Shown here: in pieces, positions 8,400 through 37,781 of the stretch | How positions within the stretch are numbered: position 1 is the stretch's first letter | Layout of the letters: each line of letters begins with the position of its first letter | Source of the DNA: a virus | IMG/VR virus record: IMGVR_UViG_3300046529_000553 | Span: 1 to 37,781 of that record | Direction: 5' to 3' (one strand) | DNA length: 37,781 nt | Made by a program: the position numbers and the translations under genes | The notes under the pieces: generated by a model | The model's database searches: none | Told to the model about the DNA's origin: nothing | What the model saw: only the letters and a program-made list of their open reading frames with translations

Positions 8400-9563
8400 T
8401 CAAACGTAGTTCACGCCGGAAAGCACGGGAAGCTGGCCGAAGCCGCTCGTGATGTTGCCCGGGTAAGTTGTCGTCGTTGCGCCGACCATGCCTTGAACCA
8501 AGGTGATGACGAAGCCGCTCGTGCCTGACACCGACGCGATCGCCGATTCGATGTCGGATCGGTTGATCGTGCCCGCGCGCGGGTCGCCGTTCCGGAACAG
8601 GACATCAGCTATAGCCGCTGAAATCGCTGCCTTGGTCGCGGGCGACGCGCTCATCAATCCCGAGAGCGTGAACGTCAGATTGTTCGCGACCGGCGCACAT
8701 GAATACACGAGCGCTGTAACCGGCTGTTCATTGACGATGGCGTCGGCGACGACAAGTTGATCGCCGGTTGCGACCGTGCCGCGGGGCGAGCCGCCCGGTC
8801 CCTTGTCGTACTGTGAGCATCCGTTCGTCCCTTGTGGGAATCCGTTGTGCGAGGCCTCCGCAGAGTCCCACATCGTATAAATCACGACCGTCCCGGCTCC
8901 GAAGCCATTCGGCGCGCACCAAGCGCGCGTCACACCAGGTACGGCGAGGGCCCAACCGATGTAGTCGTTGAGGTCGCCACCTTGAGGCGTGTTCTGATAT
9001 GCAGCAAGCATGCGGGTCCGCAGATCGTCGTTTTCCTCGACGTCCGCTCCTGATGCAACCGTGCCCGTGATCGTCCCGGACGACTGCAATCCAGAGACCG
9101 CAGCGCCGAGCGCTACAGTCGTGCCTGGATCTGCGTTACCGGCCGCACCCGCCACAGTCGCGACGATCGTCACCGAAAGCGATCCCGTTCCGTCCACCGC
9201 CGCTGTCGCGCCCGTCGTGTATGTCGCGCCATCGCTGCGTACGACCTGCGTCCCGGCATTAAGCACCGTTCCCGTGACGCCAGCGAACGCTGCTGTCAAC
9301 TGCGCTGGCGTCGCTGCCTTCCGATAGACCTTCTTGAGCGCCGCCCAACCTTCCAGATATTCGTCTTCCGCGGTGAACGGAACCGCCTGCTTGGCAATCC
9401 AGTCGAGATACCCCATCTGCAGGTTAGACATTCCGGCCTGCACCTTTCCGACCACCTTCAAGACGGTACGGCGCAGCGTTGCATCAGCACCCTGCAGGGC
9501 CGAGTTGATGTCAGCCGCCACCTCGCTGATCAAGGTGGAGAGCGTTTTACGTTGGAATGGCAT
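8400..9563 (-). CDS. Baseplate wedge protein J-like (Mu gp47)
   Basis: 387 residues. The start has L-S-T-L-I-S-E-V-A-A-D-I, then Y-L-D-W-I-A-K-Q-A-V-P-F-T-A and Y-L-E-G-W-A at about 57-80. Middle regions carry G-T-V-L-N-A-G-T-Q-V and P-G-T-T-V repeats, and a D-L-R-T-R-M-L-A-A-Y-Q-x-x-P-Q-G-G motif at about 182-200. These are diagnostic of the baseplate J family, which forms the wedges around the hub in contractile tails. It sits between gp46-like and gp48-like genes. Length is usual for the family. Confidence 0.93.
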   Translation of the reverse strand: MPFQRKTLSTLISEVAADINSALQGADATLRRTVLKVVGKVQAGMSNLQMGYLDWIAKQAVPFTAEDEYLEGWAALKKVYRKAATPAQLTAAFAGVTGTVLNAGTQVVRSDGATYTTGATAAVDGTGSLSVTIVATVAGAAGNADPGTTVALGAAVSGLQSSGTITGTVASGADVEENDDLRTRMLAAYQNTPQGGDLNDYIGWALAVPGVTRAWCAPNGFGAGTVVIYTMWDSAEASHNGFPQGTNGCSQYDKGPGGSPRGTVATGDQLVVADAIVNEQPVTALVYSCAPVANNLTFTLSGLMSASPATKAAISAAIADVLFRNGDPRAGTINRSDIESAIASVSGTSGFVITLVQGMVGATTTTYPGNITSGFGQLPVLSGVNYV

Positions 9564-33492: not shown

Positions 33493-34191
33493 TCAGTGCA
33501 GATCCGCGCCGCGCATCTTCTGCGCAATCTCGGTGAGGCCCTTGGCGGTCACGAGAACCTGCGTGGTGACCTTCTCGGAACCGTCGTTGCGGTGGACGGT
33601 CGTGATCTTGTGCTCGAGCACGCCGCGCTGCAGCTTGTCCTGATAGGCGGTCCACGTCGCGCCGCCGGGACGGCGATAGATCCAACCGTTCGACTGCATC
33701 CACTCGAACACGCGCTTCGGCTGCTCCTGCAGGTTCTTGGCGGCATCGGTGATGCACATCGCACCCTGTGCAACCGTCAAGCGATTGAGCGCCTCGACCT
33801 TCGGCGCCGCGGCGGCGACCTCTTTCTGCAGGCGATCACGATCTTCCGCGAGATCCGCCGCCAGACGCAGCGCTTCAGACATCGTCTGCGGGATGGCGAA
33901 CGCGCTGGCCGCGGCCTGCTGCTCCAACTGCTGCCAGCGATCAACGAGACGCGCAGTGAACTGCGGTGAGAGCTGCGCGACGATCACATAGCTGTCTCGC
34001 TTGCCCACGCGATACTCGACTACGCGCTGCCCGAGGTGGTTTTTAACTTCCTCAGCCTGAGGAAGTTGAATCACGCCTTGATGTGCCAAATTCTCGATGG
34101 TCCGCTTCACGTTGTCGTGACGCGATTCGAGCAACTCGGCAATCTCGCGGCTCGACATCATCGGCGCGCCCGGCATCGTCAATTCGTTCAT
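33493..34191 (-). CDS. Rha/KilAC-domain phage regulatory protein
   Basis: 232 residues from the ATG at 34191 (GAGGT). Residues 1-85 match the Rha family: M-S-S-R-E-I-A-E-L-L, S-R-H-D-N-V-K-R-T-I-E-N-L, then Y-R-V-G-K-R-D-S-Y-V-I-V and L-V-D-R-W-Q-Q-L-E. A helical linker leads to a KilAC (antirepressor-type) domain at about 120-230: I-T-D-A-A-K-N-L, R-V-F-E-W-M-Q-S-N-G-W-I-Y and V-L-V-T-A-K-G-L. Such proteins modulate early phage gene expression or antagonise repressors; the target here is not known. Confidence 0.85.
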   Translation of the reverse strand: MNELTMPGAPMMSSREIAELLESRHDNVKRTIENLAHQGVIQLPQAEEVKNHLGQRVVEYRVGKRDSYVIVAQLSPQFTARLVDRWQQLEQQAAASAFAIPQTMSEALRLAADLAEDRDRLQKEVAAAAPKVEALNRLTVAQGAMCITDAAKNLQEQPKRVFEWMQSNGWIYRRPGGATWTAYQDKLQRGVLEHKITTVHRNDGSEKVTTQVLVTAKGLTEIAQKMRGADLH

Positions 34192-34199
34192 GGATGACC

Positions 34200-34385
34200 T
34201 CACAGGTCGTTGTCGTGACCGCACGGCAACGAGCCGTCGGCGGATTGACGCGCACCGCAGCCGATGCAGATCTTGCTCGGCTGGGCGGCGTCAGAAGGTG
34301 ATGTCGAGATCGGGCCGAGGAACATGCGCCCGATGCCGAGGAGTTCGAGAGCCGAATTGACGGGCTGCAGATCGCGCGCGCTCAT
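34200..34385 (-). CDS. Small protein with a C-terminal zinc-knuckle-like motif
   Basis: 61 residues from the ATG at 34385 that overlaps the preceding stop (ATGA). The C-terminus has I-C-I-G-C-G-A-R-Q, then S-L-P-C-G-H-D-N-D-L, giving C-x2-C and C-x-H that could bind zinc. The rest is unremarkable (A-L-E-L-L-G-I-G-R-M-F-L). It lies 8 bases before the Rha gene. Function unknown. Confidence 0.6.
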   Translation of the reverse strand: MSARDLQPVNSALELLGIGRMFLGPISTSPSDAAQPSKICIGCGARQSADGSLPCGHDNDL

Positions 34386-34926: not shown

Positions 34927-35147
34927 GCCGTTACAGCGCTCCCAACTTGGGACGACGCGACACTGACGCTCAGCAGATTCGCTGGCAAAGTGCCAATCGT
35001 GCCGAACAGAAAAAGCTTGGCAATTCGAGCAAGCGCAGCGGAATCGTGATCGATCCCATGCAGAGCCTTGTAGGCCTGCAATCCCTCGTAGACGGGGTCT
35101 TCGAGGCGGGTCTTGACTTCATTTCGAAACTCGGCACGACGCGACAT
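34923..35147 (-). CDS. Small early protein, possible ribbon-helix-helix type
   Basis: 74 residues with AGGGAGG just upstream. The N-terminal half reads R-A-E-F-R-N-E-V-K-T-R-L, then Y-E-G-L-Q-A-Y-K-A-L-H-G-I-D-H-D-S-A-A-L, which fits a short strand and two helices. The C-terminal part is Gly/Ser/Val-rich and probably flexible. As the first gene after the cro-like gene, it holds the slot of lambda cII-type regulators, but has no cII motif. Function uncertain. Confidence 0.55.
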   Translation of the reverse strand: MSRRAEFRNEVKTRLEDPVYEGLQAYKALHGIDHDSAALARIAKLFLFGTIGTLPANLLSVSVASSQVGSAVTA

Positions 35148-35225
35148 AGAACCTCCCTAACAAAAAGAAAAAGTTGAACGATGACCATCTTTACCGCGGG
35201 TGAGACCAACCTCCTTTTCTTCCAC

Positions 35226-35489
35226 CTAGATTTCGGCTGTCCGAGAAACACGCAATATCTCGAACCCTCGATAGTCCGGCCGAAGCTTCTCGCATGTGAT
35301 GCGTTCGTCTTTCAGCGCGTCCTCTATGAACGGGCACGCCTCGACCGGTGCACGCTTGTCCCTGTTGATCCACTGCCAGACGGCCTGCGTGCTACTTCCG
35401 ATACGGCGCGCGAAATCGGCCTGGCTGTCGCACAAGGAGACGGCGAGCTTCAGGGTTTCGAGCGCGAGGGTTTGGGCGGCGTTTTCCAT
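35226..35489 (-). CDS. Cro/YdaS-like HTH regulator
   Basis: 87 residues from the ATG at 35489; upstream in-frame ATGs at 35501 and 35498 would lie in the promoter. A YdaS/Cro-type helix-turn-helix is clear: A-V-S-L-C-D-S-Q-A-D-F-A-R-R-I-G-S-S, then A-V-W-Q-W-I-N-R-D-K-R-A-P, and a conserved end (A-C-P-F-I-E, I-T-C-E-K-L-R-P-D). It would bind the operators between itself and the repressor gene. The -10 box ends 8 bases before the ATG, so the message probably starts at or next to the ATG. Confidence 0.82.
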   Translation of the reverse strand: MENAAQTLALETLKLAVSLCDSQADFARRIGSSTQAVWQWINRDKRAPVEACPFIEDALKDERITCEKLRPDYRGFEILRVSRTAEI

Positions 35490-35496
35490 AGCCACC

Positions 35497-35525
35497 ATCA
35501 TAAACCTTTGTTTAAAGAAAATCAA
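35497..35525 (-). promoter_or_regulatory. pR-like promoter driving the cro-like and early genes
   Basis: On the minus strand TTGATT (35525-35520), 17 bases, TATGAT (35502-35497). The -10 shares two bases with operator 35501-35514 and the -35 overlaps the next operator. Predicted start at 35490-35489, at the ATG of the cro-like gene. Confidence 0.7.
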
Positions 35526-35559
35526 ACTCTTGTTTATGGCGCATGAACACAATTGTTTA
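35501..35559. promoter_or_regulatory. Three repressor operators (OR-like), 14-bp palindromes
   Basis: Copies at 35501-35514 (TAAACCTTTGTTTA), 35523-35536 (CAAACTCTTGTTTA) and 35546-35559 (AACACAATTGTTTA) follow the consensus TAAAC-N4-GTTTA. Centre-to-centre spacing is 22 and 23 bases, two helix turns. The first is perfect, the second and third are degenerate on one arm, as in a graded-affinity lambda-type array. Confidence 0.75.
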
Positions 35560-35572
35560 TACGATGCGCCCC

Positions 35573-36586
35573 ATGAGTCTGGGAAAGAACGTCAAGCACC
35601 TTCGCGCCTTAGCTGACATCGCACTGGAGCCCTTGGCGGAAGCCCTGGGCTTGGAGCGTGCTGCCGGCCGTCAAAAAATTTATGCGCTCGAAAAGCGCGA
35701 AAGCAAAAAGTCAGACATCGCTTCTGACCTCGCCAGATATTTCGGCTTCCCCGTCGAACGGCTGCTCTCCGAAGATCTGACGCACCTCACCAAGGACGAG
35801 TGGCTGGCGATCCGCAGCGCCTACTATCATTCCAATCCACCGAATAACAGCCAGAACAGCGGCCAGATCGAGCAATCGACAGCGCCGTCGCGGGCGGATC
35901 ATTCCCGAACAGAACTTGGGCGGACGGAAGCCCTGCAGCGTGTTCAGGCCGCAGGGAACTCCCTCGGGCTCTCAGCAATAGAAATTGCGAAGGCCGCCAA
36001 CGTCGATCAGAGGGTGGCCGAGCGTTGGCTGCGAGGCGAAGGCGATCCGCCCACGCTGGAGCAGGCTGTCGCGCTCCAGAACAAGTTTGGGATCAACGCT
36101 GTCTGGCTAACAAAGGGAAAAGGTGATCCGGGTGTTACCGTTCGCTTCACGGACGAGTTTCAGCCGATCCCCATAACGAATTGGAAGGCAATACCTGTGG
36201 TTGGCATGGCACAACTTGGAGATAACGGCTACTGGGCTGACCTGGAGTATCCAGTCGGCCACGGTGATGGCTACGTTACCTTCCCGACGAACGACCCCGA
36301 CGCTTACGCGCTTCGTTGCGAAGGTGATTCGATGCGGCCTCGCATCAAAGCCGGCGAGTTCGTGGTCGTTGAGCCGAATCACGAAATCGAGCCAGGCGAT
36401 GAGGTTCTCGTGAAGTCCATCGACGGACGCGTCATGGTGAAGGAGTTTCTCTACCGCCGCATGGGAAGAACACACCTCATCTCGACTAACGACGCTCACC
36501 CGCCGGTGGCATTTACGGATGAAGAAATCGAGAAGATGCATTACGTCGCCGGCATCGCGAAGCGGGCAATGTGGCGCCCTGCATGA
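35573..36586 (+). CDS. Phage repressor, two HTH domains and S24 autoprotease domain (CI-like)
   Basis: 337 residues if it starts at the ATG at 35573, just behind the third operator; ATGs at 35543 and 35564 would lie in operator DNA. The first helix-turn-helix-like region is at about 5-65. The second, at about 119-185, has S-A-I-E-I-A-K-A-A-N-V-D-Q-R-V-A-E-R-W-L, an XRE type. The C-terminal S24 domain has G-D-S-M-R-P (Ser253) and V-M-V-K-E-F (Lys290). No Ala-Gly or Cys-Gly cleavage pair is visible before the protease domain. It keeps the prophage silent by binding both operator clusters. Confidence 0.85.
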   Translation: MSLGKNVKHLRALADIALEPLAEALGLERAAGRQKIYALEKRESKKSDIASDLARYFGFPVERLLSEDLTHLTKDEWLAIRSAYYHSNPPNNSQNSGQIEQSTAPSRADHSRTELGRTEALQRVQAAGNSLGLSAIEIAKAANVDQRVAERWLRGEGDPPTLEQAVALQNKFGINAVWLTKGKGDPGVTVRFTDEFQPIPITNWKAIPVVGMAQLGDNGYWADLEYPVGHGDGYVTFPTNDPDAYALRCEGDSMRPRIKAGEFVVVEPNHEIEPGDEVLVKSIDGRVMVKEFLYRRMGRTHLISTNDAHPPVAFTDEEIEKMHYVAGIAKRAMWRPA

Positions 36587-36606
36587 TTTCCCTGGGGTTA
36601 ACAACA

Positions 36607-37344
36607 ATGAAAAGAACCCGGATCTTATTCACCTTTATCGCCGCGCTCGCGAGCGTCGACGCATTCGCTGATACCGAGTATGCGCTGCTCGCGCCCCCTG
36701 AGAGTATCGAGAGGATATGCATGCAAACAGCGGGCGTAACCTGCGTGCACGATGCGGAGCAGGCGGTTCCTGATAATTTGAGGCATAACGCGGCCCTTCC
36801 CTTGTCGCCGGACCAGATGTCGTTCCTCGATCGAGCAGGATCGCCGCGCACGGAAGTCCGCGGCTTCTTGATCCTAGCGGACGCGCAAACGCCAGGTGGG
36901 AATCGGTACTACCGCGCGTCGGCGAAGATCTTCAAGACAGCCTTTCTCGGAACCGGGATGAAGCAGGACGAGGACTACCAGCCAGTTTTCTGGTCTGAGG
37001 TTGGCGCCGAGTTCTCCGCAGCTCCCGTCAACTCGACCGCGGAAGCGGCGTTTGCGGCGGACATCGACAGAAAGGCCGAGCAAGAAGCGATGCGCCGACA
37101 GCAGCGCCAGCTGCTGCTCGCGCAAAAAGAAGCCGACGCCAGGTATCGAGCTTCGCCTGAATACGCGGCGTCGGAACGGAAGCGTCAAATCGAGCAATGC
37201 AAGGTCACAATCGTGCAGGCAAGAAAGGCTATCGCGCAAGACGAGCGTGTCGCGAAGATCTCCGGATATGAAAACAAGTTGCTGCGCGAGCAGGCCGCCA
37301 TCTCGATAGTGCAGTGCGAGGACTTGCTGGCGTCGAGCCAATAA
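36607..37344 (+). CDS. Secreted/periplasmic protein, candidate lysogen-expressed gene
   Basis: 245 residues from the ATG at 36607. A signal peptide is plain: basic K-R-T-R, hydrophobic I-L-F-T-F-I-A-A-L-A, then A-F-A-D with cleavage after Ala. The middle has a globular region with C-M-Q-T-A-G-V-T-C, probably a disulfide. Residues about 150-240 are helical, very rich in Gln, Arg and Glu, with a second Cys pair (E-Q-C-K, V-Q-C-E). It lies 20 bases after the repressor on the same strand with its own terminator, so it is probably expressed in the lysogen. Function unknown; surface exclusion is a guess. Confidence 0.65.
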   Translation: MKRTRILFTFIAALASVDAFADTEYALLAPPESIERICMQTAGVTCVHDAEQAVPDNLRHNAALPLSPDQMSFLDRAGSPRTEVRGFLILADAQTPGGNRYYRASAKIFKTAFLGTGMKQDEDYQPVFWSEVGAEFSAAPVNSTAEAAFAADIDRKAEQEAMRRQQRQLLLAQKEADARYRASPEYAASERKRQIEQCKVTIVQARKAIAQDERVAKISGYENKLLREQAAISIVQCEDLLASSQ

Positions 37345-37365
37345 AGATCGCAGACCACCAATACC

Positions 37366-37388
37366 AAACCCGCTTCGGCGGGTTTTTT
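37366..37388 (+). terminator. Strong intrinsic terminator after the repressor operon
   Basis: AAACCCGC (37366-37373), UUCG loop, GCGGGTTT (37378-37385), then TTT. It ends the repressor/secreted protein unit and isolates it from pL. Confidence 0.85.
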
Positions 37389-37452
37389 GTTGCGCTCGCG
37401 CGCCGCGCCTCGGCCCTTTCGGTGCGCTGTTACAACTTTCTCTGCGTCCACA

Positions 37453-37489
37453 TAAACATTTGTTTTGACATTGTCTAAACGTATGTTTA
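37453..37489. promoter_or_regulatory. Two repressor operators (OL-like)
   Basis: 37453-37466 (TAAACATTTGTTTT) and 37476-37489 (TAAACGTATGTTTA), the same 14-bp palindrome as at the repressor/cro boundary, spaced 23 bases. They lie across the -35 and -10 of a strong promoter. Confidence 0.75.
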
Positions 37490-37493
37490 TGAT
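37465..37493 (+). promoter_or_regulatory. pL-like promoter (TTGACA-N17-TATGAT)
   Basis: Perfect -35 TTGACA (37465-37470), 17-base spacer, -10 TATGAT (37488-37493). The -10 shares two bases with the downstream operator and the -35 two with the upstream one, the same geometry as pR. Transcription would start near 37500 and run off the window, presumably to integration or recombination genes. Confidence 0.8.
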
Positions 37494-37536
37494 TCATCCC
37501 ATGCGCTGAACGAAGAGCGCACCGGCGAAAACCGGG

Positions 37537-37589
37537 AGCCCTGATCTCAGGGCACTGAGTGACTCATCCAGTGCCTTGTACTCAGGGCT
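37537..37589 (+). ncRNA. Structured leader downstream of pL with alternative hairpins
   Basis: Within the first 90 bases of the pL transcript AGCCCTGA (37537-37544) can pair with TCAGGGC at 37547-37553 or, with one more pair, with TCAGGGCT at 37582-37589. GGCACTG (37551-37557) can pair with CAGTGCC (37569-37575), competing with the first hairpin. A small GAAAA-loop hairpin precedes this at about 37522-37535. It could be an antitermination or attenuation element or a small RNA. The 393 bases from 37389 to 37781 hold no other supported gene. Confidence 0.45.
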
Positions 37590-37660
37590 TCTCTCCCGAC
37601 AAAGAATGCGCCGAATTGCCGGCGCGGCGCCGAAAGGCGATCGCTCTCTATCACTGTTGA

Positions 37661-37781
37661 ATGATGAATTGGCGTGAAATCGCCCTGCCCATGTCCCGGA
37701 CGGCAGAACGTAAAAGTCCCGGAAATGGCGGCCAGAGGAGCTGCTTCCGAAAGGCGCCCAGTGCTAGGTGGCGCGGTAACC
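37661..37781 (+). CDS. Possible start of a gene cut by the window edge
   Basis: Forty codons (M-M-N-W-R-E-I-A-L-P-M-S-R-T-A...) remain open to the end of the window, downstream of pL. No ribosome site is convincing and the sequence is Arg-rich, so chance is possible. A start at 37664 or 37691 is equally possible. Confidence 0.25.
   Translation, partial: MMNWREIALPMSRTAERKSPGNGGQRSCFRKAPSARWRGN

Follow-up and report, generated by a model that had tools for sequence, protein, structure and literature searches.

The window analysed here, an IMG/VR virus record taken at its full length of 37,781 bases, has Caballeronia phages as its close relatives. The closest is a metagenome contig (L007) encoding a repressor 99% identical to that of the window, and a prophage in Caballeronia temeraria (L008 and L020) encodes one that is 92% identical. 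A DNA search of phage records with the whole region gave weak matches only, to the S24 half of the repressor and to Bcep176 beyond the early promoter PL, and no match was obtained in Rfam or in a PDB sequence search. The genes, domains and RNA elements of the immunity region are as follows.

33493-34224, minus strand: antirepressor-type gene with Rha and KilAC/ANT domains (PF03374, E 6.5e-31; phrog_63, anti-repressor Ant)
35226-35489, minus strand: Cro-type gene of the YdaS family, 87 aa (Pfam PF15943, E 2.9e-15)
35573-36586, plus strand: repressor, 337 aa, composed of HTH1, HTH2 and Peptidase S24
35573-35842, plus strand: HTH1, residues 1-90, predicted operator reader with a 434-repressor-like fold (phrog_36081, AF2, Foldseek)
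35936-36130, plus strand: HTH2, residues 122-186, predicted to have no role in operator specificity (Pfam HTH_3, E 2.5e-06 at residues 130-179)
36266-36532, plus strand: Peptidase S24 domain, residues 232-320, with a Ser253/Lys290 dyad (PF00717, E 5.8e-17)
36607-37344, plus strand: unrelated cargo gene in the interval between the repressor and PL, no family match
37366-37385, plus strand: terminator-like hairpin closing the repressor operon just ahead of OL
37499-37591, plus strand: structured PL leader RNA, conserved even where the operator words of the phages differ

The minus-strand genes run leftward in the order YdaS-type Cro, small genes, Rha/KilAC gene and replication initiator. The Cro-type gene carries a YdaS domain and is divergent from the repressor. 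The Rha/KilAC gene, which lies on the Cro (PR) side, could provide a second induction route besides S24 cleavage. The cargo gene is probably read together with the repressor; its protein looks secreted and belongs to no known family. The operators and promoters located in the two intergenic regions are listed below.

35497-35525, minus strand: early promoter PR, TTGATT at 35525-35520, 17-base spacer, TATGAT at 35502-35497; similar layout in G113 and L008
35501-35514, unstranded: operator OR1, TAAACCTTTGTTTA, 0 mismatches; TA in common with the PR -10; arms kept in L008 and G113
35523-35536, unstranded: operator OR2, CAAACTCTTGTTTA, 1 mismatch; overlaps the PR -35; position-1 C also in G113
35546-35559, unstranded: operator OR3, AACACAATTGTTTA, 2 mismatches, the most degenerate; overlaps the putative PRM -10
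35557-35562, plus strand: putative PRM -10 (TATACG), predicted from the sequence
37453-37466, unstranded: OL operator, TAAACATTTGTTTT, 1 mismatch; overlaps the PL -35
37465-37493, plus strand: early promoter PL, TTGACA, 17-base spacer, TATGAT
37476-37489, unstranded: OL operator, TAAACGTATGTTTA, 0 mismatches; TA in common with the PL -10

The five TAAAC-N4-GTTTA words that the earlier note had placed at 35501, 35523, 35546, 37453 and 37476 were all present there, and the 22-23-base spacing it gave was measured as 22 and 23 in OR and 23 in OL. The promoter geometry that it described (TATGAT as -10, TTGATT or TTGACA as -35, 17-base spacers and operator overlaps) also agreed with the sequence: the -10 of each early promoter has two bases (TA) in common with one operator, and the -35 runs into the adjacent operator, by 3 bases at OR and by 2 bases at OL. 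PR and PL were the sole sigma-70-like matches within 35100-37781. The repressor and cro are thus divergent genes, one operator array lies over both PR and the putative PRM, and the same word recurs in a second array, with two sites, at the distant early promoter PL. With the PRM start placed from the -10 position, the centre of OR2 would lie about 40 bp upstream of it. Judged by the -10 positions, both the repressor message and the Cro message appear to be nearly leaderless, the Cro ATG being predicted at or beside the PR start, which would make that message leaderless.

The number of words was compared with chance expectation. In the window, 4 words with at most one mismatch were observed against 0.13 expected, a count reached in no shuffle, and 7 words with at most two mismatches were observed against 2.85 expected; the two additional words in the latter set, at 8717 and 28774, are both isolated. 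Word pairs 20-25 bp apart occurred three times in the real sequence and were absent from 150 order-2 Markov copies of the window. The host genome of a near-identical prophage (8.3 Mb) has three copies of the exact word, two within the prophage and one outside, and five copies of a reversed control word. A tandem word pair, defined by 8 bases between words and at most two mismatches, was present in 4 of 398 Burkholderiaceae genomes, and mismatch-free pairs among these 398 were confined to the related prophage and to G113. An equal density of the motif elsewhere, which the earlier note had named as grounds for giving up its reading, was therefore not seen in the host or in the 398 genomes. Tandem-word matches on unrelated viral contigs (L062-L067) were set aside once their context had been inspected; in two of them (L066 49-84 and L067 965-1023), the TAAAC-N4-GTTTA words form tandems with a spacing of about 22 bp, lie within or adjacent to HTH replication-protein-like frames and are perhaps iterons.

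The 398 Burkholderiaceae genomes were also searched with repressor residues 1-92. A stand-alone helix-turn-helix protein of 126 residues (G113:C1:3283694), 43-47% identical to HTH1 and devoid of both HTH2 and the S24 domain, was found in a distant prophage, next to a divergent YdaS Cro (54-58% identical to that of the window) and three OR words spaced 22 and 23, with two OL words 2 kb off, past a gene resembling HipA (weak match) and another with DUF3037. Over OR, the operator arms of the window and G113 are identical at 29 of 30 positions and the other positions at 13 of 29 (Fisher p 8e-6). All four promoters of the two loci have a 17-base spacer, a -10 sharing TA with an operator and a -35 entering the other operator, and even the odd letters are kept in G113, namely the position-1 C of OR2 and the xACAC of OR3. 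In L008, the PR hexamers are now TTGCAA/TATGCT and the OL spacers are altered (the counterpart of the 37476 operator is TAAACCAATGTTTA, with the same arms and a changed spacer), and the operator arms are identical. Since arms are kept while operator spacers vary in G113 and L008 and the PR hexamers in L008, selection acts on the arms. The array is retained in G113 without HTH2, indicating that an HTH1-type domain alone would suffice to accompany the word. For the other relatives of HTH1 (L036-L039), no operator array was found nearby, and tblastn with HTH1 and the G113 repressor as queries matched no phage records and gave one distant plasmid match.

The third copy, which had been suspected of differing most, is the most degenerate one in the window, L008 and G113, with an xACAC left arm, so the weak third site is a conserved feature. 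As for the complete two-site switch proposed earlier, the 3+2 array and the promoter geometry are kept in relatives including G113, which bears the proposal out; OL has two sites where lambda has three, and the likeness is partial in this respect. Also overlooked in the earlier reading were the two HTH domains of the repressor, only the front one of which follows the operator word. Between repressor and OL, a cargo slot holds different genes in different phages, the HipA-like and DUF3037 genes of G113 (L054 8072-9606) giving weak matches to PADLOC candidate-defence entries.

The repressor has the make-up of an S24 CI repressor, that is, an HTH together with a Peptidase_S24 domain bearing a Ser/Lys dyad. 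Ser253 and Lys290 were invariant across an alignment of 10 sequences, and self-cleavage is therefore expected. In the full-length AlphaFold model, HTH2 folds confidently and the HTH1 part is mostly below pLDDT 50, for which reason HTH1 was modelled by itself (AF2, built from 4 sequences), giving a pLDDT of 87. The top Foldseek matches of this model include the DNA-binding domain of the 434 repressor, with a TM-score of 0.83 by target length. The E-values were weak (best 0.04), as is usual for a domain so short. No Pfam family matched HTH1 at cut-off, and its assignment as an HTH is based on the 4-sequence AlphaFold model, the fold similarity and the PHROG matches. The latter are to phrog_36081, in which HTH1 matches 1-89 of 133 and the stand-alone G113 protein (L054 7695-8075), nearly over its full length, 1-119. 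The function listed for this family is unknown; the prediction made here is that it comprises immunity repressors.

Homologs of the HTH2+S24 half were found in 36 of the 398 Burkholderiaceae genomes. At least 89 residues lie ahead of HTH2 in the same open frame at 27 of the 30 loci fetched, and 3 of the 30 are single-HTH; HTH2 is the only HTH in L015, L085, L087 and L089. L009-L017 align with the window repressor only from about residue 76-122 on, and they carry other front domains, except for L015, which has a single HTH. Pfam HTH matches, some below cut-offs, were obtained for 7 of 9 front domains tested. By a de novo word search that was blind to the word of the window, each front-domain type was found to go with one palindrome, present in both the OR and the OL clusters. 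The word classes are as follows.

TAAAC-N4-GTTTA: window type
TAAAC-N5-GTTTA: L009, L013, L071, L072, L074, L076, L082, L091
TAGGC-N3-GCCTA: L057/L077
AATAC-N4-GTATT: L014/L079
GTAGC-N4-GCTAC: L073, one locus with both arrays
ATACG-N4-CGTAT: L086, one locus with both arrays
ATAGC-N3-GCTAT: L098, one locus with both arrays

The score of the real word was reached in 0 of 100 shuffles per locus at nine loci, and at several survey loci the de novo search gave no confident word. Two pairs of loci separate the contributions of the two domains. L077 and L079 have 60 of 70 HTH2 residues in common (86%), their HTH1 domains are unrelated, and their words are TAGGC-N3-GCCTA and AATAC-N4-GTATT, respectively. 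L091 and L009 have HTH1 identical at 56 of 94 positions (60%) and HTH2 at 23 of 63 (37%), with TAAAC-N5-GTTTA as the common word. The word follows HTH1 and not HTH2 in both pairs, which makes HTH1 the very probable reader and HTH2 an older domain that has been kept. In a partial Mantel test on 14 loci, eight of them in the TAAAC-N5 class so that the effective sample size is small, the correlation with the word was 0.90 for HTH1 (p 2e-4) and -0.34 for HTH2. OL lies beyond the HTH2+S24 half and still goes with HTH1, so the link cannot be put down to adjacency alone. The arrangement in which a single HTH right before the S24 half is the reader was not found here; there are two HTHs, and it is the front one that tracks the word. 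The comparison thus suggests that the repressor reads the word through the added front domain HTH1 and that the older HTH2 behind it sits unused.

Over roughly its first 90 bases, the PL transcript folds into conserved hairpins, and a 284-base stretch starting at 37498 has a folding z-score of -4.2. The leader is nearly invariant across several operator classes, and the operators immediately upstream change class. A scan of the window with a covariance model of the leader found the PL copy (plus its own reverse strand) and none on the PR side. The leader was considered as a put-like antiterminator and set aside, there being no PR-side copy and the support for the structure including no two-sided compensatory changes; with the element on PL only, it was not filed as put. 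It is possibly a cis-acting antitermination or translation element. In L008-type phages, another hairpin covers the ribosome site of the next gene. Sequence resembling the start of the leader (CATCCCATGCGCTGAACGAAC) occurs in two Caballeronia-genus genomes, at about 1490-1531 of L047 and 148-194 of L048, directly upstream of a gene for an Hcp-like protein. About 140 bases past the leader (37640-37781) are 74% identical to a stretch of Burkholderia phage Bcep176 that holds the tiny annotated genes gp28/gp29, similar DNA is also present in L057, and a small frame starting at 37661 has no stop before the window end.

Taken together, the locus is very probably a lambda-type switch with three OR and two OL sites, in which HTH1 reads the word, HTH2 is kept and the immunity type changes through a new HTH1. 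In the lysogen, a repressor dimer on OR1 and OR2 would block PR and support PRM from OR2, and repressor on both OL sites would block PL. OR3 would be weak and would shut PRM at high occupancy. The YdaS-type Cro would bind the same words and compete for them with the repressor, and induction would proceed through RecA-stimulated S24 self-cleavage, possibly also through the Rha/ANT-type antirepressor. HTH1, as a 434-like domain for a 5-4-5 operator, would read TAAAC-N4-GTTTA, and HTH2 would be the domain with which the S24 repressor ancestrally bound DNA, retained after its role in specificity was gone. A new immunity type would arise when the conserved HTH2+S24 half is joined to a different HTH1, together with the OR, OL and Cro that match it.

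Another reading is that the palindromes are mainly sites of the YdaS-type Cro and that the repressor acts elsewhere or via HTH2. Cro follows the word just as closely as HTH1, so the comparison alone cannot rank repressor and Cro as the conserving force, and YdaS of CP-933P binds operators over PRM and PR (PMC8630535); in that same phage, however, the repressor and YdaS compete for overlapping sites (PMC8630535). Around the repressor gene, no second family of repeated palindromes was conspicuous, and the array covers parts of both early promoters, whose silencing is required in a lysogen, so this reading is considered very unlikely. A bivalent repressor, which would hold the palindrome arms with HTH1 and contact nearby or remote DNA through HTH2 so that sites are bridged, would account for the keeping of HTH2 in 27 of the 30 surveyed loci with a front extension and for its confident fold in the AlphaFold model. 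However, the same array is found with the G113 repressor, which lacks HTH2, and HTH2 has no predictive value for the word when HTH1 is controlled for. In addition, the start of the HTH2 recognition helix is DQRVAERW in the window and DQAVAERW in L008 with the word unchanged; such bridging is rather unlikely. Next to no credence is given to chance AT-rich palindromes or replication iterons in place of operators. The tandem words 22 bp apart in or beside replication-protein-like frames on the unrelated contigs L066 and L067 would fit iterons, but the words of the window sit on both early promoters, their arms are conserved and their spacers are not, and chance is already refuted by the shuffle and Markov controls.

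With HTH1 as the preferred reader, a wider proposal, held with moderate confidence, is that temperate phages of the Burkholderiaceae switch immunity by stacking a new N-terminal HTH on an S24 repressor, the old HTH being kept silent. The added HTH would sometimes be a former stand-alone repressor, for example of the G113 type, and OR, OL and Cro would change to match it. If so, immunity specificity would be uncoupled from the SOS-sensing half, and new phage immunity types would have a testable account in which a reader domain is added and not mutated. The survey also offers six or more HTH domains, each paired with its own operator word and all carried by the same conserved scaffold; these pairs may be useful as orthogonal repressors. 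It further suggests a function for the unannotated phage protein family phrog_36081. In a limited set of papers on phage repressors with two, double or tandem HTHs and on the immunity regions of Burkholderia phages, the architecture appeared in no title or abstract opening.

In lambda, the three OR sites are spaced at about 23 bp, OR2 is near -40 of PRM, PL carries an array and the repressor is autoproteolytic. The window resembles it in the three OR sites, in the predicted position of OR2 relative to PRM, in the second array on PL and in the expected autoproteolysis of its repressor, and differs in having only two OL sites, words of 14 bp, a Cro of the YdaS type, a repressor with two HTH domains and an antirepressor-type gene. 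The operators of phage 434 are also 14 bp, the 5-4-5 size is the same, and the HTH1 model superposes on the DNA-binding domain of the 434 repressor, whereas HTH1 is longer, with an extra helix and about 27% identity, the word is another one and HTH2 is present in addition. In HK022, put RNAs (the putL/putR antiterminators) occur in both early transcripts (PMC9378689); a structured, conserved RNA right after PL is common to HK022 and the window (PMC9378689), whereas in the window it is on the PL side only.

CP-933P of E. coli O157:H7 (PaaR2/YdaS/YdaT) differs from the window in that its OR region holds four inverted repeats of 18 bp, its PL has three operators and a two-HTH S24 repressor is lacking (PMC8630535); PaaR2 is small, with a His-tagged mass of 15 kDa, and is described as having no sequence similarity to CI (PMC8630535). 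Both loci have a YdaS-type Cro divergent from the repressor or CI analogue, operators over PR/PRM plus a separate PL, and non-phage cargo genes between repressor and PL (PMC8630535), the toxin-antitoxin genes that adjoin the CP-933P repressor being comparable to the cargo slot of the window. In CP-933P, measurements have shown leaderless translation of the repressor, a Cro role for YdaS and matching operators on PL (PMC8630535), and the leaderless repressor message predicted for the window is consistent with the one measured there.
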